NCBI GenBank assembly: GCA_017503105.1
Contig: JAFVTS010000021.1
Coordinates: forward strand, 1 to 48,732
DNA from: Clostridia bacterium
GTDB taxonomy: Bacteria; Bacillota; Clostridia; Oscillospirales; CAG-272
Reading direction: 5' to 3'
Length of the DNA stretch: 48,732 bases
Below, piece by piece: positions 2,007-48,710 of the stretch; within the stretch, counting starts at the first letter, position 1, and each line of letters opens with the position of its first letter. A program made the translations under genes and the position numbers. The notes below the pieces were generated by a model. That model was given only the letters and a program-made list of their open reading frames with translations, was not told where the DNA came from and did not search any database.

Positions 2007-3008
2007 ATGGATACAAACAGAAGACCCGAAACAATGCAGCGCATCACTACGAAGGCTCTTGCAGACGCCTTTATAGAAGAGCAAGTAGCGCAGGTAAGAA
2101 AGCAAGTCGGAGGCAGAAAGGTGCTTCTCGCTCTCTCGGGCGGTGTTGACAGCTCGGTCGTGGCAGCACTTCTCATAAAAGCAATAGGTAAGCAGCTCGT
2201 TTGCGTGCACGTAAACCACGGACTTATGCGTAAGGGTGAGTCGGAGCAGGTCATTGACGTGTTCGGAAAGGCTCTTGACGCCAACCTTGTGTATATTGAT
2301 GCCACGGAAAGATTCCTCGGACTTCTTGCGGGCGTTTCCGACCCCGAGAGAAAGAGAAAGATAATAGGCAAGGAATTTATAGAGGTCTTTGCAGACGAGG
2401 CAAGAAAGCTTGAGGGCGTTGAATTCTTGGCTCAGGGAACTATTTACCCCGATATTCTTGAGAGCATCAAGCAGGCAGAGGGCAAAAAGGCAGTAAAATC
2501 CCATCACAACGTCGGCGGCCTTCCCGAGGATCTTAAATTCGAGCTCGTTGAGCCCGTGAAGCTTCTTTTCAAGGACGAGGTCAGAGTCGTTGGCGAGGCG
2601 CTCGGTCTTCCTCACAAGATGGTATACCGTCAGCCCTTCCCCGGTCCCGGTCTCGGCGTTCGTTGCCTCGGCGCTATCACGCGTGACAGACTCGAAGCGC
2701 TCAGAGAAGCAGACGCTATCCTTCGTGACGAGTTTGATAAGTGCGGTCTTGCGGAGAAGGTATGGCAGTACTTCGTCATCATTCCCGACGTTAAGTCCGT
2801 CGGCGTAAAGGACGACAGCCGCTACGAGGGCTGGCCCGCAATCATTCGCGCGGTAAACACTACCGACGCTATGAGCGCGACCATCGAGGAGATACCTTAC
2901 GCCGTCCTCAGAAAGATCACGGAGCGCATCACATCCGAGGTCGAGGGAATAAACAGAGTTCTCTACGATATTACTCCGAAACCCACGGGAACTATAGAGT
3001 GGGAATAA
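2007..3008 (+). CDS. guaA: GMP synthase, ATP-pyrophosphatase/dimerisation subunit only
   Basis: This 333-residue protein corresponds to the C-terminal two thirds of GuaA. The PP-loop SGGVDSS lies near residue 45, then come the HVNHGLMR segment, a PGPGLGVR block and the typical C-terminal PTGTIEWE. It adenylates XMP with ATP and aminates it to GMP. The class I glutamine amidotransferase domain (about 190 residues, normally at the N terminus) is absent, and no partner glutaminase is adjacent. A proper ribosome binding site (GGAGGAATC, spacing about 8) precedes the ATG. This argues for a genuine stand-alone subunit of the archaeal GuaAb type, not a truncated pseudogene. It would need a separate glutaminase or free ammonia. 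Confidence 0.93.
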   Translation: MDTNRRPETMQRITTKALADAFIEEQVAQVRKQVGGRKVLLALSGGVDSSVVAALLIKAIGKQLVCVHVNHGLMRKGESEQVIDVFGKALDANLVYIDATERFLGLLAGVSDPERKRKIIGKEFIEVFADEARKLEGVEFLAQGTIYPDILESIKQAEGKKAVKSHHNVGGLPEDLKFELVEPVKLLFKDEVRVVGEALGLPHKMVYRQPFPGPGLGVRCLGAITRDRLEALREADAILRDEFDKCGLAEKVWQYFVIIPDVKSVGVKDDSRYEGWPAIIRAVNTTDAMSATIEEIPYAVLRKITERITSEVEGINRVLYDITPKPTGTIEWE

Positions 3009-34045: not shown

Positions 34046-36982
34046 ATGAGAAAAGTCAAAATATTTTCGGTACTGCTTGCAGCCCTGACGCTCCTGTTCC
34101 TTGTCGCTTGCGGCGGAGAGAGTGAAACGCCCGACGGCGGCGTTGGAAACGCGGATAATAACGCTCCCGTCCATACTCACGCATTCGGAGAATGGGAAAC
34201 GACGAAGCTTGCGACCTGTACCGAGGCGGGCGAGCTTGCACGCTATTGCTCGTGCGGTGAGGTTCAAACGAAACCTGCCGTTGCACTCGGACACGACGAG
34301 GTAAGCCACTCGGCAAAGGCGCCCACTTGTACCGAGATAGGCTGGGATGCGTACGTTACTTGCTCGCGCTGCGATTATACTACCTACGCGGAAAAAGCAA
34401 AGCTCGGACACGACGAAGTGAGCCACGAGGCAAAAGCGCCCACTTGTACCGAGATAGGCTGGGATGCGTACGTTACTTGCTCGCGCTGTGATTATACTAC
34501 TTATGAAGAGAAAGCAGCACTCGGACACGACGAAGTGAGCCACGAGGCAAAAGCGCCCACTTGTACCGAGATAGGCTGGGATGCGTACGTTACTTGCTCG
34601 CGCTGTGATTATACTACTTATGAAGAGAAAGCAGCGCTCGGTCACACGCCGAAGATTGCTGTTGAAGAAAACAGAGTTGAAGCAACGTATACCGAGGACG
34701 GACGTTACGACAGTGTGGTGTATTGCAATACTTGCGGCACCGAGCTTTCAAGAACGACGGTAACGATACCGATGCTCAAGCATACCCCTAAAGCTCCTGT
34801 TCAGGAGAATTATAAGAGCGCAACCTGTACCGAGGGCGCGCACTACGACAGCGTCGTTTACTGTGCTGATTGCGGTGCGGAGCTTGAAAGAAACAAATTC
34901 ACCGTCAGCGACCCTCTTGGGCACGACACAGCAACAAGACAGGAAAATCGCGTAGAAGCAACGTGTACAGAAGACGGTAGCTATGACAGCGTAGTATACT
35001 GTAAGGTTTGCGGTGACGAGGTTTCGAGAACGAAGAAAACTATAACGAAGCTCGGACACTCGCCGAAGAGTGCGGTGGAAGAAAACCGCATTGAAGCAAC
35101 GTGTACGGAAGACGGTAACTGTGACAGCGTTGTGTATTGCAAGACTTGCAACGTCGAGCTTTCAAGAACGAAGAAAACTATAACGAAACTCGGACACACG
35201 CCGAAGAGCGCGGTAGAAGAAAACCGCGTTGAAGCGACTTGTACGGAAGACGGTAGCTACGACAGCGTGGTATATTGTAAGACTTGTAACTTCGAACTTT
35301 CAAGAACAAAAAAAGAAATATTACGTTCACATAAAATGTTGGACGGTAAATGCACGGTTTGCGACCTTCCCGAGAGTAGCGAAGGATTAGAATTTTCGCT
35401 TAATCCCGATGGAAAGTCCTATACCGTGACCGGAAGAGGATCATGTACGAGCACTGATATAGTGATCGGTGTTTATAAAGGTTTGAGCGTAACGGCTATC
35501 GGTAAGTGGGCGTTCGAATATTGCTCCAGCCTTACGAGCATTGTAATTGGAAACAGCGTAACGACTATCGGTTCTTCTGCGTTCCATGATTGCGACAGCC
35601 TTACGAGCGTGTATATAACAGATATAGCAGCTTGGTGCGGTATAGAGTTTAAAGGTAGTTCGTCAAATCCTCTTAGTTGTGCAAAGAATCTTTATCTTAA
35701 CGGAACTCTTGTTAAAGATCTTGTAATCCCCGACAGCGTAACGACGATCGGTAAGTATGCGTTCGAATATTGCAAAAACCTTACGAGCGTGACTATAGGA
35801 AAGAACGTAACGACTATTGGTTTTAATGCGTTCAATTATTGCGACAGCCTTACGAGCATTACTGTAGATGAGAATAATACAGCATACAAATCTATAGACG
35901 GAAACCTTTACTCAAAGGATGGAAAAACTTTAATTCAGTATGCGGCAGGAAAGACTGATACAAGCTTTGCTATTCCCTCGGACGTAATGACTATCGGTGA
36001 TGATGCGTTCGCTTATTGCTACAACCTTACGAGCGTAGTAATACCAAACAGCGTAACGACTATCGGTTCTTCTGCGTTCTCTTCTTGCTCCAGCCTTACG
36101 AGTGTGACTGTAGGAAACGGCGTAACGACAATCGGTTCTTATGCGTTCTCCGGTTGCTCCAGCCTTACGAGCGTGTATATTACAGATATAGCAGCTTGGT
36201 GCGGTATAGAGTTTAGTTCTAGTTCAAATCCTCTTTCTTATGCAAAGAATCTTTACGTAGGCGGAACTCTTGTTAAAGATCTTGTAATCCCCGACAGCGT
36301 AACGACTATCGGTTCTTCTGCGTTCGAATCTTGCGACAGCCTTACAAGCGTGACTATCGGTAACAGCGTAACGACAATCGGTAATTCTGCGTTCTCCAGT
36401 TGCGCCAGCCTTACGAGCGTTGTAATTCCCGACAGCGTAACTACTATCGGTAATTATGCGTTCTATTGGTGCACAAGCCTTACGAGCGTGGTGATCCCCG
36501 ACAGCGTAACGACTATCGGAGATTGGGCGTTCTATGATTGCAAAAACCTTAAATACAATGAATATGACAACGCATATTATCTTGGAAACGAGAATAATCC
36601 ATATCTTTTGTTAGTTAAAGCAAAGAGTACGAGTATAACTTCCGTAACTATACATAAAGATACAAGATTTATTCATTCTTCTGCGTTCTATGATTGCTAC
36701 CGCCTTACGAGCGTGACGATAGGAAACAGTGTAACTACTATCGGTGATAGGGCGTTCTATTATTGCTACAACCTTACGAGCGCAGTGATCCCCGACAGCG
36801 TAACGTTTATCGGTGCTTATGCGTTCTATGGTTGCGACAGCCTTAGGAGCATAAAATATCGTGGCACGTCATCGCAGTGGAATTCGATAAGTAAGGGGGA
36901 GAATTGGAATAAATATTTCTCAGTCTATGGTGAATATGTTACAATCAGTTACACGATGACCTATAATTACACAGGTGAATAA
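34046..36982 (+). CDS. Large surface lipoprotein with Cys-rich repeats and BspA-like LRR_5 repeats
   Basis: This 978-residue protein has a lipoprotein signal with lipobox LVAC (Cys22). Residues about 80-205 hold 39-residue repeats (GHDEVSHEAKAPTCTE then TCSRCDYTTY), two of them adjacent and almost identical in DNA. Residues about 206-430 hold related repeats with ATCTEDGSYDSVVYC. Each repeat has paired cysteines. From about 450 on, BspA-type leucine-rich repeats (SVTTIGSSAF then C, SLTSVVIPDS) run nearly to the end. Such proteins mediate adhesion to host or to other bacteria. It has its own strong promoter and a good RBS (AAAGGGGAG). The repeats make it prone to length change by recombination. 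Confidence 0.9.
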   Translation: MRKVKIFSVLLAALTLLFLVACGGESETPDGGVGNADNNAPVHTHAFGEWETTKLATCTEAGELARYCSCGEVQTKPAVALGHDEVSHSAKAPTCTEIGWDAYVTCSRCDYTTYAEKAKLGHDEVSHEAKAPTCTEIGWDAYVTCSRCDYTTYEEKAALGHDEVSHEAKAPTCTEIGWDAYVTCSRCDYTTYEEKAALGHTPKIAVEENRVEATYTEDGRYDSVVYCNTCGTELSRTTVTIPMLKHTPKAPVQENYKSATCTEGAHYDSVVYCADCGAELERNKFTVSDPLGHDTATRQENRVEATCTEDGSYDSVVYCKVCGDEVSRTKKTITKLGHSPKSAVEENRIEATCTEDGNCDSVVYCKTCNVELSRTKKTITKLGHTPKSAVEENRVEATCTEDGSYDSVVYCKTCNFELSRTKKEILRSHKMLDGKCTVCDLPESSEGLEFSLNPDGKSYTVTGRGSCTSTDIVIGVYKGLSVTAIGKWAFEYCSSLTSIVIGNSVTTIGSSAFHDCDSLTSVYITDIAAWCGIEFKGSSSNPLSCAKNLYLNGTLVKDLVIPDSVTTIGKYAFEYCKNLTSVTIGKNVTTIGFNAFNYCDSLTSITVDENNTAYKSIDGNLYSKDGKTLIQYAAGKTDTSFAIPSDVMTIGDDAFAYCYNLTSVVIPNSVTTIGSSAFSSCSSLTSVTVGNGVTTIGSYAFSGCSSLTSVYITDIAAWCGIEFSSSSNPLSYAKNLYVGGTLVKDLVIPDSVTTIGSSAFESCDSLTSVTIGNSVTTIGNSAFSSCASLTSVVIPDSVTTIGNYAFYWCTSLTSVVIPDSVTTIGDWAFYDCKNLKYNEYDNAYYLGNENNPYLLLVKAKSTSITSVTIHKDTRFIHSSAFYDCYRLTSVTIGNSVTTIGDRAFYYCYNLTSAVIPDSVTFIGAYAFYGCDSLRSIKYRGTSSQWNSISKGENWNKYFSVYGEYVTISYTMTYNYTGE

Positions 36983-42127: not shown

Positions 42128-42202
42128 GGCCCGTTAGTCAAGCGGCTAAGACGCGGCCCTCTCAAGGCTGAAACATGGGTTCGATTCCCGTACGGGTCAC
42201 CA
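42128..42202 (+). tRNA. tRNA-Glu (anticodon CTC)
   Basis: The acceptor stem GGCCCGT/ACGGGTC (one G-T pair) is followed by an A discriminator and an encoded CCA. The anticodon stem-loop CGGCC-CTCTCAA-GGCTG gives CTC (Glu, GAG codons). It marks the boundary between the metH region and the phage-like genes to the right. It could be the attachment site, but no matching direct repeat can be shown inside the window. Confidence 0.93.
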
Positions 42203-42339: not shown

Positions 42340-42460
42340 GCTATTCCACCCGATTATTTTGCGTTTCTCTTCTCATTTCCATAACGCAATTCGTTATTTT
42401 CTAACAAAATCAAGCGGAAACGATAAAAAACTGTTAGAATTTAACGAAAGGAGCATGGTT

Positions 42461-42718
42461 ATGATTAGAATTCTACTGTCCAAGAAGCTGGGCGAGCTTC
42501 GTTGGACCCAAGCAGACCTTGCTCGCGCTACCGGGATAAGACCTTCTACAATAAATGAGATCTATCACGAGATTGCGGAGCGAGTTAACCTGGAACACCT
42601 CGATCTGATATGCGAGGCCCTTGACTGCGAGCTATCTGAAATCATTATCAGAGTACCCGATCGTTACCCCAAGACCAAAACTCGTACGGGCGCACCCATA
42701 CATAAATATGACGATTGA
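42461..42718 (+). CDS. XRE-type helix-turn-helix protein (phage-type regulator)
   Basis: This 85-residue protein has the pattern KKLGELRWTQADLARATGIRPSTINEIYHE, the helix-turn-helix of the YozG/HTH_26 kind. A short Lys/Arg-rich tail follows. The ATG at 42461 has ideal spacing to AAAGGAG; an ATG two codons earlier is too close. It converges on the second XRE gene. Such pairs occur in lysogeny-control regions. Confidence 0.83.
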   Translation: MIRILLSKKLGELRWTQADLARATGIRPSTINEIYHEIAERVNLEHLDLICEALDCELSEIIIRVPDRYPKTKTRTGAPIHKYDD

Positions 42719-42768: not shown

Positions 42769-42984
42769 TTATATTTCTTCTCCTGTTTCGCGGTCGATGA
42801 ATTTAATAACCAAGTCCACACCGAGCGCATCTGCAATCTTGCGCAGCTCGCTCTCCTTGAAATCGTCGCGTTTCATTTTGTTATTCAAGTTCTGCGGAGT
42901 ATCGCCCATCCTTGCCGCCAAGTCCCTCTCGGAGAGGTTTCCGCGCTTTACGCGCATAATTCTGATTTTTTCTGCCATTGCCAT
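42769..42984 (-). CDS. Cro/CI-type repressor-like protein
   Basis: This 71-residue protein has an N-terminal helix-turn-helix (NLSERDLAARMGDTPQNLNNKMKR) and a short acidic C terminus (IKFIDRETGEEI). There is no protease or dimerisation domain, so it is a Cro-like minimal repressor. An AGGAGG site precedes the ATG. Its promoter carries the palindrome TACACT-N4-AGTGTA between -35 and -10. The same operator lies in the facing promoter of the early-type genes, which makes this protein the likely binder. Confidence 0.82.
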   Translation of the reverse strand: MAMAEKIRIMRVKRGNLSERDLAARMGDTPQNLNNKMKRDDFKESELRKIADALGVDLVIKFIDRETGEEI

Positions 42985-43011: not shown

Positions 43012-43040
43012 ATTATACACTATTCAGTGTAGTTTGTCAA
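43012..43040 (-). promoter_or_regulatory. Promoter of the Cro-like gene with operator O1
   Basis: On the minus strand TTGACA (43040-43035) and TATAAT (43017-43012) have a 17-bp spacer. The palindrome TACACT-ATTC-AGTGTA occupies 43016-43031, filling the spacer, so a bound repressor would block RNA polymerase. Confidence 0.88.
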
Positions 43041-43089: not shown

Positions 43090-43118
43090 TTGACAAAATA
43101 CACTTTTTAGTGTATAAT
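43090..43118 (+). promoter_or_regulatory. Early-type promoter with operator O2
   Basis: TTGACA (43090-43095) and TATAAT (43113-43118) have a 17-bp spacer. The palindrome TACACT-TTTT-AGTGTA occupies 43099-43114, with the same half-sites and the same placement as in the facing promoter. The pair forms a two-operator divergent switch. Confidence 0.9.
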
Positions 43119-44641: not shown

Positions 44642-44983
44642 TTACTTTGTATCGGTTGAGCCGCCTGTGTCGGTAGGTGCAGTAGATGTAGTATTTACCT
44701 TCGACAGATCCTCGCCGTTCTCGGCTGCTTTAAGCAACTGCTTGAATACCTGATTGGTACCTGTTGCCGCGAGTCCGGACACAGCTCCCGAGATAATTGC
44801 CGCGGTAAGCGTTGCCGCGCCAATGAATTCGGGAAAGATGAAGAACATCGCCGCCGCGAGAAGTGCGCCGAGGATGCAGGAGATCAACGGATAGAATTTG
44901 CTGTTGATCTTGGTGGTCTTGATCGCGGTGATTGCAATGTAGCAAATAACCACGATTACGGGAATTGCTGAATAGTTCAACAT
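44642..44983 (-). CDS. Holin-like membrane protein (A118 holin type)
   Basis: This 113-residue protein has an N-terminal transmembrane helix (AIPVIVVICYIAITAI) and a second helix (LISCILGALLAAAMFFIFPEF). A third, small-residue-rich helix (AIISGAVSGLAATGTNQVF) and a polar charged tail complete it. This layout matches the phage holin family typified by Listeria phage A118. It would form the membrane hole for release at the end of a lytic cycle. An AGAGGTAA RBS precedes the ATG. No endolysin is visible next to it. Confidence 0.75.
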   Translation of the reverse strand: MLNYSAIPVIVVICYIAITAIKTTKINSKFYPLISCILGALLAAAMFFIFPEFIGAATLTAAIISGAVSGLAATGTNQVFKQLLKAAENGEDLSKVNTTSTAPTDTGGSTDTK

Positions 44984-45042: not shown

Positions 45043-45606
45043 TCATTTGGTTTCGTGTTCTATGATGGTGAGCTTGTTCATTGCCGGCTGAACTTCGGAG
45101 TGCATATATCCGTCGCCGCCGTTCTCTTCGTATTCTTTGAAGAGCTCCCAAAATGCGTCTGCTTCCATCCTCGACCACGATTGCGTGGGATTGGTTTCGG
45201 TATTGGTATAATACCTGTAATTCTGCAAGAGCCTGTCGCGGATCTTATTTCGCTCACGGCGCTTGGTGTCCTCTTCCATCTTTTTAACGCGTTCTGCGAG
45301 ATCGGAAATGGCTACACCAAATTCCGTTTTGAATTCCTGTATATCCTTTCTGACCGCGCAGTTTTCGTCTTCAAGCTCGTGTTGGATCTGAATACTTTGC
45401 TTGCGGTATTCGGGATATTTCCGTACGGCCGTTAAAGCCTCCTGCAACTGTTCGTCGCGGAGCTTATCCGCGTCGTGTTTGGCAATAAGATAGTCCTTGA
45501 CCTTGCGATAGCACAAGATAAGGAATACTATTGCCGCAATAAAAATAGCAACATCAAGAACTGTGATGTTGCCGAAAGCATCAATGAATGACTGCCAAGT
45601 TATCAA
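45043..45606 (-). CDS. Membrane-anchored coiled-coil phage protein
   Basis: This 187-residue protein has one N-terminal transmembrane helix (VLDVAIFIAAIVFLILCY) and a long charged coiled coil (KLRDEQLQEALTAVRKYPEY to MEEDTKRRERNKIRDRLL). An acidic tail with FWELFKEYEENGGDGYM follows. I place the start at the TTG at 45606 because GGAGGTG precedes it with 5-7 nt spacing. A longer ATG reading from 45666 has no such site and runs into the terminator region. It resembles holin-adjacent lysis-module proteins of clostridial prophages, but the function is not assigned. Confidence 0.72.
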   Translation of the reverse strand: MITWQSFIDAFGNITVLDVAIFIAAIVFLILCYRKVKDYLIAKHDADKLRDEQLQEALTAVRKYPEYRKQSIQIQHELEDENCAVRKDIQEFKTEFGVAISDLAERVKKMEEDTKRRERNKIRDRLLQNYRYYTNTETNPTQSWSRMEADAFWELFKEYEENGGDGYMHSEVQPAMNKLTIIEHETK

Positions 45607-45644
45607 CTCTGCACCTCCGATATTGTATTGTCGCGTCCTTTGCA

Positions 45645-45674
45645 ATAAAAAAGCCGCGGTTTTCACCGTGGCTC
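45645..45674 (-). terminator. Candidate terminator after the reverse transcriptase gene
   Basis: On the minus strand GCCACGG and CCGCGGC (one mismatch) form a hairpin with a 6-nt loop, followed by a run of T. It lies 11 bp after the reverse transcriptase stop codon. Confidence 0.6.
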
Positions 45675-45684
45675 TAACGCCCGA

Positions 45685-46794
45685 TCAGATGTCGGGGCGT
45701 GATATTGAATTTTCTTCGGCATAGTGCCGAACCAACACAAAGTCGTCCAGCACTTTATTCCGCAGGGCATCACAATCGCAATGCTTCAGATGTCCGAGAT
45801 AGCTCGTTATAACGCTGAGAGCATAATCGAGTGAGATTTCTCCTGTTGAGTAGTGATCCATAACATACCGTAGATGTTGCTTCATATGAAGCGAGGTGGA
45901 TTTACGGAGCTGGATTTTATCAGGCCATATTCGCTTGCCGACAAATTCTACACCTGCATCATATGGCATTATGGCTGTTTTGCTATTCAGTTGCAGGCCG
46001 AGCTCGCTATACAAGTAGTCCTCAAATCTTCCGAGGATTTCGTGTATTTGATCTTTGCTCGGTGCAAGGAATATCATATCGTCCATATACCGAATGTAGT
46101 ATGGGGCGCGGAGTTCTCTTTTTATGAAGTGGTCTGCGGGCGTCATAACAACATTCGCCGTCATTTGAGAAATCAGACTGCCTACCTGCATACCAATCCC
46201 AAGAACGCGCTCGCATTCTGTCACGTCTGTTGCTTCAACAGGCAAGCCAAACGCCCGTCCATCACAACGGATAGCCTTTTCCAAAAACCACATCATATCG
46301 GGATCGTCTAATGGCTTGCCGAGGCTCCATAGCTGAACATCGTAAGGAACGCGGAAAAAGAATTTAGCAATATCAAGTTTGCATATCCACCAATTTTCCT
46401 TTTTGTTTCCTACGAGGCGCAACCAATACTGAAGCTGTTTCGCCGCTTTTATCGGGCCGAGGGTTTGGATTGAGCCGTAGCTGTGTTCGTAAAAAGAGCG
46501 CTTGTATATCGGCCACAACACATTGTATGCCGCACAATTTACCACTCTGTTTTCAAACGGTATCACGCTTATTATGCGCTTTTTGGGATAGTATTCAATG
46601 AATTCGGACATATGCTCAACCTCGTATGATTTCCAAATCAAATGATTTTGGCTATCAATGAGGTTTTCTTCGAGATTTGCCGTATAGTTCAGCACTTCAT
46701 TCTTGTATCGCTTGTGTTTGCGAGCAAGAAGATAACCGCCATACAAATTTTCAAAATCTACAAATCTTTCAAAAACGTGCTTGTGCTTCTCCAT
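45685..46794 (-). CDS. DGR reverse transcriptase
   Basis: This 369-residue group-II-intron-like reverse transcriptase shows motif A as CKLDIAKFFFRVP (Asp141). The GSLISQ box at 205-210 is the DGR/Abi-type variant of the usual QGxxxSP. The YMDD catalytic box lies at 236-239 (YIRYMDDMIFLAP). There is no maturase or endonuclease domain. It copies the template repeat RNA with frequent misincorporation at adenines, together with the Avd protein. The TR lies 154 bp upstream and avd just before that. An AGGAG sequence precedes the ATG. Confidence 0.96.
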   Translation of the reverse strand: MEKHKHVFERFVDFENLYGGYLLARKHKRYKNEVLNYTANLEENLIDSQNHLIWKSYEVEHMSEFIEYYPKKRIISVIPFENRVVNCAAYNVLWPIYKRSFYEHSYGSIQTLGPIKAAKQLQYWLRLVGNKKENWWICKLDIAKFFFRVPYDVQLWSLGKPLDDPDMMWFLEKAIRCDGRAFGLPVEATDVTECERVLGIGMQVGSLISQMTANVVMTPADHFIKRELRAPYYIRYMDDMIFLAPSKDQIHEILGRFEDYLYSELGLQLNSKTAIMPYDAGVEFVGKRIWPDKIQLRKSTSLHMKQHLRYVMDHYSTGEISLDYALSVITSYLGHLKHCDCDALRNKVLDDFVLVRHYAEENSISRPDI

Positions 46795-46948
46795 ACAGCT
46801 CCTCCCGGTGCTACGCTGTGCAGCGAAAGCGGCATACGTAGCTAAACATTTTTCTTCTCACTTTTAGTGAGCCGAAGAAACAAATCCCTTTATACCCCTT
46901 GTGCTGATTGCATCCCATTAGGCGTACAATATCTGACTTGTGGGGGTG

Positions 46949-47063
46949 AAGCGGCACGGAAGCCAAGGTTCGTGTTCGTGTTGGAACGACCATTGTTGCC
47001 GTTGACGTAGAAAAGACCGGCGTTGGACGAGTTCGTCCAGTTGCCGCCGCAGTAGAAAGACCG
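46949..47063 (-). repeat. DGR template repeat (TR)
   Basis: This 115-bp non-coding segment lies between avd and the reverse transcriptase gene. It aligns without gaps to 47630-47744 (constant offset of 681). On the coding (minus) strand its adenines are concentrated in AAC/AAT codons, and its in-frame reading is Asn-rich (FYCGGNWTNSSNAGLFYVNG). 18 of its 23 adenines differ in VR; none of the 92 non-adenine positions differs. The 154-bp spacer up to the reverse transcriptase probably belongs to the structured template RNA. Confidence 0.96.
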
Positions 47064-47077
47064 TGATGATTTGTTCC

Positions 47078-47434
47078 TTATGTTTTGGGGTCGCCGTGGA
47101 CGGTTTTCAGCCACCCTCCCAACATCTTGCCTATTTCCACAACCATCGCGCTCCACACCTCATATTTTTTGAGAGGCAGAAAGCCGAGATCGTGAGATAA
47201 GCGCAGGTATGCTTTGAGTTTCATTATCTCTACATCGAGGTCTTGCAGAGTGGTCTTTTTGTAGTACTTCTTTTGAGCCTCGATACACCGTTCAAGCATA
47301 ACGTCCATACAACGCTTGATATCGGTTGCGAGAGCGAATTTCTCTGATTTGGGGAATTGGGCGAGCGCGAGATATCCATACTCCATCATATCAAATATCT
47401 TTTGGAGTAGCTTCAATTCTTCTGCCATACCCAA
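47078..47434 (-). CDS. avd: Avd accessory protein of the DGR
   Basis: This 118-residue all-helical protein contains ALAQFPKSEKFALATDIKRC and LKAYLRLSHDLGFLPLKKYE, which match the four-helix-bundle accessory variability determinant (S23-like) family. Avd pentamers bind the reverse transcriptase and the template RNA and are required for cDNA synthesis. It ends 14 bp before TR. The order target-avd-TR-RT on one strand is the classical DGR arrangement. Confidence 0.92.
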   Translation of the reverse strand: MGMAEELKLLQKIFDMMEYGYLALAQFPKSEKFALATDIKRCMDVMLERCIEAQKKYYKKTTLQDLDVEIMKLKAYLRLSHDLGFLPLKKYEVWSAMVVEIGKMLGGWLKTVHGDPKT

Positions 47435-47573
47435 TCCTCCCGAAAACTTGCGCTCCTTGCTATTATAGCAGATGTTGAGAGGGTTTGCAGGCTATTGTTG
47501 AAAAATAACGAAATACGTTATTTTATAAAAAATCGACGCTCCGCTTCGCTTCGCTCAGCGGACTTGGGAGCGA

Positions 47574-47593
47574 GGCTCCGCTACCGCGGAGCC
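47574..47593 (-). promoter_or_regulatory. DGR target-site hairpin with GRNA-type loop
   Basis: GGCTCCGC and GCGGAGCC are perfect 8-bp arms with a 4-nt loop reading GGTA on the coding (minus) strand. This matches the GRNA loop rule for hairpins next to variable repeats that promote mutagenic homing. It lies 36 nt beyond the VR and 13 nt beyond the target stop codon. A further GC-rich stem followed by T residues (about 47531-47570) may end the target transcript. Confidence 0.8.
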
Positions 47594-47606
47594 AAGCAGA
47601 ACACAG

Positions 47607-48710
47607 TTAAGCAGTAGGCAGTTCAACAAAAGCGGCACGGAAGCCAAGGCCCGTGCTCGTGCGGGAACGACCATGGCGGCCGAGGACGCAGAAAAGACCG
47701 GCGACGGACGAGGACGCCCAGTCGCCGCCGCAGCAGAAAGACCGTTCTGCGTTTGCATTGTTGCAATAAAAACGGTCACTTTTGTATGCGGCGTCCTCAA
47801 CGCCATCGAGTTTCAGAAAACCGAGAGCGCGAAGAATGTTCATAGCGGCTTCGCATACAGTTTCTTCGCACGTCGTGCTTGCGAACGATGCATCGCGGTA
47901 TGTATCCACCGCATCGGTGATTGTGCCGGTGATCCATTTCCACTTATTATCCACTCTGTCGAGCTTCAAACTGTTGGGAGTTGTGCCGGTGCCGTTGGGA
48001 GCGATGAGGGCGCCCGTGGTACCATCAATCGCATACCACAAAGAAGATGTCGCGCTCTGGCTGTTGTCGGGGTCTGCAGCATCATTGCCGAAGGTCTCGC
48101 CGTCGTGCGAAATGACCTGCAATTCTCCGTAAACAATACGAATACCGCCAACCCATTCGTTGACGTTTCCGTTCATATCCCAAATGCCGTCGGGGGAATT
48201 GTTGTGCGACCAAGTGAGAGGTCCTGTGCCCGTAGCTACGCGAGCGATGTTACCGCTTTCGTAATACGTGGGGATTGCTTTCATAACACTCTCGGAATGG
48301 TCCTTGCCGTAGTTGTTGTTGCCGTTCGGGAGGAAGCCATTCTTCAAGCACCAAAGAGCAATCGCCATCCATTCAAGGCGCGTCTGCAAATGCCATCCTT
48401 CGCCCTTGTTTGCGCAATTTGTAATTGCGGTATCAAGGCTGATTGCGCATTTGGGATCCTGCCCTGCGAGAGAGTAAGCACGACTGTTCTGAACGATGTT
48501 CTGATACTTGGAGAAATAGATTGCATCTACCTCCCTGCCGTTGATGATGAACGCGGGGAAAGTTTCGGTAGAGGTGCCGATGCCGAGGTCTGCCCAAGTA
48601 CACTTGGGGATTTTGACCATAACAGAGGGCATTCCCTTATCGTCAACGATCATTTCATTGCTCGGGCAAACTGCCTTAAGAGCGATATTTGCAACGTCAA
48701 AGTTATTCAT
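47607..48710 (-). CDS. DGR target protein with C-type-lectin/FGE-sulfatase fold
   Basis: This 367-residue protein has a formylglycine-generating-enzyme-like C-type lectin fold. GWHLQTRLEWMAIALWC near residues 104-120, WDMNGNVNEWVGG near 175-187 and a C-terminal GLGFRAAF are the typical segments. Residues about 323-361 are encoded by the variable repeat. In the present version 12 residues differ from the template: Tyr to Cys twice, Thr to Ala, and Asn to Asp, Ser, Val, Leu, Arg, His or Gly. There is no signal peptide, as expected for a phage structural or receptor-binding protein. The RBS AAGGAG sits at 48719. The product probably binds variable ligands on host cells. Confidence 0.92.
   Translation of the reverse strand: MNNFDVANIALKAVCPSNEMIVDDKGMPSVMVKIPKCTWADLGIGTSTETFPAFIINGREVDAIYFSKYQNIVQNSRAYSLAGQDPKCAISLDTAITNCANKGEGWHLQTRLEWMAIALWCLKNGFLPNGNNNYGKDHSESVMKAIPTYYESGNIARVATGTGPLTWSHNNSPDGIWDMNGNVNEWVGGIRIVYGELQVISHDGETFGNDAADPDNSQSATSSLWYAIDGTTGALIAPNGTGTTPNSLKLDRVDNKWKWITGTITDAVDTYRDASFASTTCEETVCEAAMNILRALGFLKLDGVEDAAYKSDRFYCNNANAERSFCCGGDWASSSVAGLFCVLGRHGRSRTSTGLGFRAAFVELPTA
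47630..47744 (-). repeat. DGR variable repeat (VR), 3' end of the target gene
   Basis: This is the copy of the TR at 46949-47063 inside the target gene, ending 23 bp before the last base of the stop codon. The last 20 bp (toward the stop) are invariant and correspond to the initiation-of-homing side. Substitutions occur only where TR has A: A to G, C or T in the coding sense. They change 12 codons without a stop or frameshift. Confidence 0.96.

Follow-up and report, generated by a model that had tools for sequence, protein, structure and literature searches.

The retroelement and its adenine footprint

The analysed stretch of DNA (the window) comprises 48,732 nucleotides of a Clostridia bacterium genome (assembly GCA_017503105.1, contig JAFVTS010000021.1). 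Between positions 45685 and 48710 its minus strand carries a diversity-generating retroelement (DGR), which is almost certainly complete. Here, this element is described together with arrays of short half-sites, which probably place it under the control of a small phage regulator of the HTH_26 family. The first-pass annotation had proposed that a reverse transcriptase (RT), a template repeat (TR), avd and a lectin-fold target gene with a variable repeat (VR) lie in order on one strand, and open reading frames (ORFs) and profile matches agreed with this order. The target gene (47607-48710) encodes an FGE/C-type-lectin variable protein of 367 aa and starts 22 nt from the contig end. The protein belongs to PHROG 2889 (E 4e-111), reaches 23.6 bits with the FGE-sulfatase profile (cut-off 23.3) and matches PDB 5VF4 over residues 20-362 (E 4e-46). 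5VF4 is TaqVP, a DGR variable protein with C-type-lectin fold (PMC6328139; here and below, papers are cited for the available excerpts of their text unless the main text is named). This match backs the earlier guess of a lectin fold and supports the assignment of the target as a TaqVP-like C-type-lectin variable protein. For the avd gene (47078-47428) the ATG at 47428 was chosen by reading in place of the mechanical TTG start at 47434; its product matched Pfam bAvd (7e-30), NCBIfam DivGenRetAVD (115 bits, cut-off 80) and PHROG 3206. The RT gene (45685-46794) matched RVT_1, PHROG 1423 (E 5e-98) and, as best PDB entry, 8UB7 (E 9e-28), which we take to be the enzyme of Bordetella phage BPP-1. Both the RT and the Avd ORF are open, and the RT holds YMDD and GSLISQ, the latter in the form of the GxxxSQ motif rule for DGR RTs (PMC11054128).

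TR (46949-47064) and VR (47630-47745), both on the minus strand, were located by repeat search and alignment. The unguided repeat search recovered the pair as 116 nt of 84% identity, 681 nt apart. In the ungapped alignment of 46949-47063 with 47630-47744 (115 nt) 18 differences were found, 10 of them A>G, 5 A>C and 3 A>T from TR to VR. They changed 18 of the 23 template adenines and 0 of the 92 other bases. The computed alignment agreed to the base with the earlier count, with zero substitutions at non-adenine template positions. Under random placement, the chance of all 18 differences falling on adenines is 7e-17. Two 116-nt copies of this identity might be taken for an ordinary duplication. 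Given the adenine-only differences and the presence of RT and Avd alongside, this explanation was rejected and its probability is negligible. The VR lies in frame at the 3' end of the intact target ORF (48710-47607), where 12 of 38 complete codons were altered compared to TR and zero stops were introduced. No further copies of TR or VR were found in the same genome, the search with TR yielding only matches of 18 and 15 nt.

A comparison with the nearest relative, locus L007 (RT 93%, target 83% identical), extended this picture. Between the two loci, the TRs disagree at 14 positions, of which 5 lack an A in both TRs and 9 lack it in one; wherever a TR has a non-A base at these 14 positions, the VR of that locus carries the same base. 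Of the 19 positions with A in both TRs, 14 differ between the VRs, and of the 82 positions at which the TRs share a non-A base, 0 do. This pattern is predicted by repeated TR-to-VR transfer with adenine mutagenesis. The adenine-only footprint, with each VR following its own TR, upholds the earlier claim of retrohoming since TR and VR were last identical. The identity of VRs among relatives was checked against this one relative, and the VRs differed. As a sequence record, the repeats show past homing activity, not present activity. A worn-out DGR, with an old footprint in a cassette that no longer works, would agree with a contig ending 22 nt before the target start. The ORFs for RT, Avd and target are open, however, none of the 92 non-A positions drifted and each VR tracks its own TR, so that we regard a worn-out element as quite improbable.

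Past the target stop codon lies a hairpin, GGCTCCGC-GGTA-GCGGAGCC (47574-47593, minus strand; DNA fold z -3.0). For phage DGRs a hairpin/cruciform with a GC-rich stem of 7-10 bp and a 4-nt GRNA loop at 4-34 bp from the VR was described (PMC3240598). The 8-bp stem and the GGTA loop fit this description, and the distance of 36 nt from the VR falls just outside. Hairpins of like kind were found in relatives (e.g. L008, L009, L032). Between TR and RT, a probable structured spacer RNA (46811-46951, minus strand) covers the full length of the Rfam model RT-14 with a sub-threshold score (36.7 bits, gathering score 48.1). Its fold was slightly better than those of shuffled sequences (z -2.2, 7 of 200 shuffles equally good). 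RT-14 passed the gathering score in 5 of 19 relatives searched (L009, L010, L012, L022, L024), and because these matches always sit between TR and RT, RT-14 may represent the spacer RNA of this DGR clade. Searches of the open-licence literature for RT-14 as a DGR spacer gave nothing.

In order to see how ordinary the element is, loci with related RTs were collected from viral contigs (best 80 of 176) and from genomes (best 80 of 136). A total of 103 loci (the window, L007-L086 and L090-L111) were examined, near-duplicates included except where representatives are named. A clean adenine-biased TR/VR pair was found at 78 of them, the window included. The remaining 25 gave no pair within the limits of the pair finder, which penalises non-A differences and keeps pairs with at most 2 of them; the locus counts also demand more than 100 nt. 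Pooled over the 78 loci, differences were counted at 1036 of 1938 TR adenines and at 20 of 7018 other bases, the low second figure being partly so by construction because of the penalty and the cut-off. Closest RT relatives with titled genomes were uncultured Clostridia and a Ruminococcus sp., and 2 of the first 4 came from sheep and goat stomachs. Close relatives of the target were scarce (4 loci in viral contigs in the close-relative search). The first-pass annotation had suggested that target and host context may be new. This was not supported, as the target falls into PHROG 2889 and matches 5VF4, and many RT relatives occur in Clostridia genomes and IMG/VR contigs. The DGR itself is an ordinary phage DGR. 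Less ordinary is the conserved, covarying regulatory site which would link it to a phage-encoded regulator. The genome encodes a further RT (contig C28:82916-83764, L002) of 25% identity to the DGR RT.

Half-site arrays before avd and the HTH_26 gene

The sequence between target and avd (minus strand 47524-47493, AAAATAACGTATTTCGTTATTTTTCAACAATA) contains the array TAACG-N5-CGTTA-N5-CAACA (47493-47524), a putative operator detected by pattern search and scan. It precedes the -10 box TATAAT (47462-47467, minus strand) of the presumed avd-TR-RT promoter, for which the best -35 match reaches 3 of 6. A second copy of the array, with TAACA as third half-site, lies at 42378-42409 on the plus strand in front of a TAGAAT -10 box and of the gene for an 85-aa HTH_26 protein of the XRE type (42461-42718, plus strand; PF13443, E 1e-17 on the longer ORF). 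With homologues linked to DGRs, this helix-turn-helix (HTH) protein is the proposed controller of the DGR promoter. At both promoters the second half-site, CGTTA before avd, starts 43 nt ahead of the -10 box. The regulator gene and its array fall outside the 45685-48710 stretch which the first-pass annotation described as the DGR. Using AAAATAACGN5CGTTATTTT with up to 3 mismatches, 2 matches were found in the whole window where 0.06 were expected, one before avd and one (42378-42400) 60 nt before the HTH_26 gene, on the strand opposite to avd. In a scan of the whole window both arrays scored 22 of 25, followed by a low-complexity stretch at 19. Twenty simulated windows peaked at 16-19, with maxima lowered a little by the restriction of scoring to positions where ACG or CG stood in register. 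The sole other exact match of the longer site in the genome (contig C21) lies within an ORF and was taken as chance. At the HTH_26 gene, a proximal half-site pair, TGTTA-N5-TAACG (42432-42446, plus strand, by reading), covers the -10 box (42435-42440). By reading, no such pair over the -10 box was seen at the DGR promoter of the window.

The DGR region appears to form one end of a prophage, because a phage holin of the Hol44 family (44642-44983, minus strand; PF16079 1e-15, PHROG 1129) is the second gene after RT and a tRNA-Glu (42128-42202, plus strand, by tRNA detection) lies at the presumed chromosomal edge. For this edge the relatives L241 and L242 were also used, where by reading the HTH gene lies beside host-like genes. 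Since the contig ends 22 nt past the start of the target gene, most of the prophage would lie outside the window. Its host is presumably Clostridia-like, to judge by the named relatives. The protein encoded next after RT (45043-45666, minus strand) has no assigned function; it shows a hydrophobic N-terminal stretch by reading and a weak holin-like PHROG match (E 0.005). A second small XRE-like regulator (42769-42984, minus strand) faces a divergent small gene. Between the two, palindromes ACACT-N4-AGTGT were read at 43017-43030 and 43100-43113, one of them inside a consensus-like promoter TTGACA-N17-TATAAT. The arrangement suggests a further autoregulated switch of the phage that uses a different operator.

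Conservation and covariation between phages

Using a cutoff of at least 18 of 25, arrays were found at 47 of the 78 loci (window included, some near-duplicates). In these DGR promoters the second half-site lies 42-44 nt from the -10 box in 36 of 47 and 63-66 nt, two turns further, in 10 of 47; for L010 the automatic pick of 36 nt was tied with TAATAT at 43. The best -35 match was 3 of 6 or less in 36 of 47. By the same automatic rule 17 of 35 regulator promoters showed 43-44 nt to the -10 box. Homologues of HTH_26 (E <1e-24) were present in 16 of 18 genomes searched and in 19 of 50 virus records, many of these records being short fragments. In 9 of 9 virus-record regions the HTH gene follows a large recombinase-like ORF, with domains confirmed in one and one ORF cut by the record end. 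For the co-occurrence of array and regulator, 61 of the 78 loci were used, with contig ranges and HTH list compiled by hand. Among the 39 of them with at least 5 kb after RT, 21 had an array (score of at least 17) and an HTH homologue, 1 an array only, 9 a homologue only and 8 neither (Fisher p 0.005). The exact 15-mer TAACGN5CGTTA was found only at the DGR and the regulator promoter in four records of 57, 75, 50 and 32 kb (G068, G071, G072, G074), as far as these are readable.

The array classes vary between phages (TAACG/CGTTA, TTACG with GGAA/TTCC, TGACA/TGTCA, GTCC/GGAC, GTGA), with DGR array and regulator promoter changing class in step in cases such as TGACA in L041 and GTCC/GGAC in L043. 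Comparing the DGR stretch with its own regulator promoter, a mean of 18.47 of 24 was obtained against 16.29 ± 0.34 after permutation (17 representatives with HTH proteins less than 80% identical), a value reached in 0 of 20,000 permutations. All 35 pairs gave 18.66 against 16.86 ± 0.23, again with 0 of 20,000. A fixed stretch after VR was used in these tests because the automatic avd start lies too early in several loci, plainly so in L018, L101, L103 and L076. We were aware of the fact that shared descent could produce such likeness of own pairs, and a control was, therefore, included in which each DGR was compared against the 5 RT relatives closest to it whose HTH was different. Of 17 own pairs, 13 scored above these relatives (p 0.005 by the Wilcoxon test, p 0.025 by the sign test), and random segments of the same locus averaged 14.7 versus 18.6. 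Moreover, residue 29 of the recognition helix could be related to the half-site. Ser occurred with CGTTA in 8 of 11, Thr with CGTGA/AGTGA in 4 of 4 and Ala with CGGAA in 6 of 9 cases. No clear link was seen for Asn (CGTTA in 2 of 3) and Gly (mixed). This tally covers 30 of 38 non-identical proteins, with HTH matches below 95 bits and 8 rows without a -10 box or with an array score below 5 dropped. Judged from these sequence comparisons, the shared operator at both promoters appears to covary between phages, although not in every pair.

In records of the TTCC class a third site was detected (5 of 11 records: G024, G025, G029, G040 and G041). Alignment with the regulator promoter placed it 550-830 nt ahead of the integrase gene, and on the other strand, in 6 of the 8 regions. 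By reading, its half-site is 42-44 nt from a -10 box in 5 of 6 and 53 nt from it in L236. The site is followed by a 53-aa ORF in L233, L234, L235 and L244 and by a 42-aa ORF in L236, while no ORF is listed close after the site in L240. An XRE gene on the other strand overlaps these ORFs with its end, and an HTH_3 domain was found for it in L234. We infer that the third site marks a promoter of the lysis-lysogeny control region, beside genes for a CI-like repressor and the integrase.

Several observations weigh against a regulator-operator link of this kind. The array score was below 18 at 31 of the 78 loci, some of which carry other array classes, and in L052 and L053 no array was seen. In L063 the pair is mismatched (TGACA class at the DGR, TTACC/GGAA class at the regulator), little own-pair similarity was observed in L038, L076, L098, L101 and L103, and in the RT-distance control the own pair was not above foreign ones in 4 of 17 (L101, L103, L098, L102). 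The residue-29 tally hinges on an automatically chosen -10 box. A good -35 box, TTGAAA, is present at seven DGR promoters (L027, L032, L033, L040, L054, L055, L099), and more than 20 kb of contig separate the cassette from the HTH homologue in L097 and L101. One record, G046, has one extra exact site, unplaced, and several records have sites with one mismatch. The third site was not seen in L238 and L239, the other 2 of the 8 regions aligned, and its scores of 22, 19, 18, 18, 17 and 17 of 24 compare with 16-18 for unrelated matches in the same regions. Faecalibacterium phages Pioen, Roos and Taranis (3 of 7 matching records examined) encode, as in the window, an HTH_26 homologue of 56-66% identity together with a DGR RT, and in Pioen and Roos the HTH gene is next after a resolvase/integrase gene. 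No matching array was seen by eye before the DGR genes of the three phages, and the Taranis locus lacks the stretch before the HTH gene. The attempt to trace the operator link into these phages, thus, failed for want of a visible shared array. The targets of Pioen and Roos hold DUF6273, unlike the window target (PMC11792537).

Such HTH homologues beside DGRs without an array, and mismatched pairs such as L063, would be expected for an ordinary DGR lacking dedicated regulation, with arrays that serve as general elements upstream of promoters, or as binding places for a host regulator, and precede both genes by chance. As the arrays lie at promoters, a shared host factor would likewise yield a fixed spacing. 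A host factor is not expected to vary phage by phage, however, whereas the array class differs by phage and follows both the phage's own regulator promoter and the recognition helix of its regulator. In four records of 32-75 kb, furthermore, the exact site occurs at two promoters only. We, therefore, consider the absence of dedicated regulation improbable, and control of the DGR promoter by HTH_26 likely.

Proposed mode of control, related systems and neighbouring loci

According to established DGR biology, Avd and RT would reverse-transcribe the TR RNA, with priming from the TR-RT spacer and errors specific to adenines, and the resulting cDNA would replace the VR at the 3' end of the C-type-lectin binding protein, aided by the hairpin after the VR. 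The proposed promoter of avd-TR-RT combines a good -10 box with a poor -35 box and the phased half-site array. The phage's own HTH_26 protein would bind this array and the near-identical one at its own promoter, acting as an activator, with the second site over its own -10 box limiting the regulator. A third such promoter, beside the CI-like repressor and integrase genes, would be served in some relatives. In consequence, the DGR would be switched with the lysis-lysogeny circuitry of the phage and not run constantly. Taken as a whole, a temperate-phage DGR wired to a phage-encoded, autoregulated regulator is probably the best explanation of the data, with the regulator link observed within this RT clade only. 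The control DNA shared by the DGR and the regulator gene suggests that the phage itself times hypermutation.

The sign of the control is less certain. XRE proteins are mostly repressors. HTH_26 might, thus, bind the DGR promoter and repress it, and the DGR would turn on when HTH_26 falls. This possibility is in agreement with the proximal site covering the -10 box at the regulator's own promoter and with extra half-sites between array and -10 box at regulator and third promoters of the TTCC class, which would be usable by a repressor and count against activation. It also finds a parallel in the Bacteroides hankyphage, where silencing of a CI-like repressor raised phage gene expression and DGR activity (PMC12135933). 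At the DGR promoter, however, the array lies upstream of the expected -35 place, no site over the -10 box was seen in the window and the -35 box is poor in 36 of 47 promoters. Repression is, therefore, possible but rather unlikely. HTH_26 as an activator is favoured with fair confidence, because the array is located upstream at a fixed 43 nt from the -10 box and the -35 boxes are mostly poor. The proximal site overlapping the regulator's own -10 box would then reflect self-limitation. More tentatively, a whole clade of temperate Clostridia phages might use one HTH_26 activator to drive itself, the DGR and the CI-like/integrase-side promoter with like geometry and a readable code between helix and half-site, so that adaptive hypermutation would fall on a particular phase of the phage life cycle; early lytic replication, during which retrohoming may work most efficiently, would be the likeliest phase.

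Known systems share parts of this arrangement. The BPP-1 DGR has the same target-avd-TR-RT order on one strand (PMC12875486), adenine-specific TR/VR differences and a GRNA hairpin after the VR (PMC3240598). It differs in the target, the window target matching TaqVP and not Mtd in the PDB. The words operator and repressor are absent from the main text of PMC12875486. The Thermus aquaticus prophage DGR with TaqVP (5VF4) resembles the window in the target family, the FGE-subtype C-type-lectin fold and the prophage setting (PMC6328139). Its host is distant, and the comparison covered target and setting. In a set of 50,697 annotated phage records 131 records matched the RT, and the RT of Bacillus phage BalMu-1 was the closest of these (42.1% identity). 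The hankyphage, like the arrangement proposed here, is a temperate phage whose DGR becomes more active when the phage repressor is silenced. In contrast, its repressor is a master repressor acting on most phage genes, and the available excerpt names no operator before the DGR operon (PMC12135933). For the BPP-1 DGR in E. coli, efficiency was tied to DNA replication, and the regulation of DGRs in the wild was called an exciting frontier in the discussion of the same paper (PMC12875486). Because of the release from the hankyphage repressor and of this link to replication, coupling of a DGR to the early phage programme would make sense. No description of an operator for a DGR operon was found in the open-licence papers searched.

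The possible advance concerns the timing of hypermutation, the DGR itself being ordinary. With HTH_26 as either activator or repressor, DGR expression would follow the phage's own regulator. This timing can be tested directly with a named 85-aa regulator and a 32-bp site at hand, and the natural covariation provides controls of specificity.

Outside the prophage region, three further loci were noted in the window. A bacterial microcompartment locus at about 22.4-32.7 kb (minus strand) encodes a glycyl radical enzyme, a BMC shell protein, an RnfC-like protein, a phosphate propanoyltransferase, an aldehyde dehydrogenase and a class II aldolase; as a guess, it may serve propanediol formed from fucose or rhamnose. 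At 34046-36982 (plus strand) a BspA-type leucine-rich repeat protein of 978 aa is encoded, with a repeated cysteine-containing motif read in its N-terminal part. A GMP synthase-like protein of 333 aa (2007-3008, plus strand) has the C-terminal domain and an NAD-synthase-like part with no match to a glutaminase domain, consistent with a split form or a truncation.

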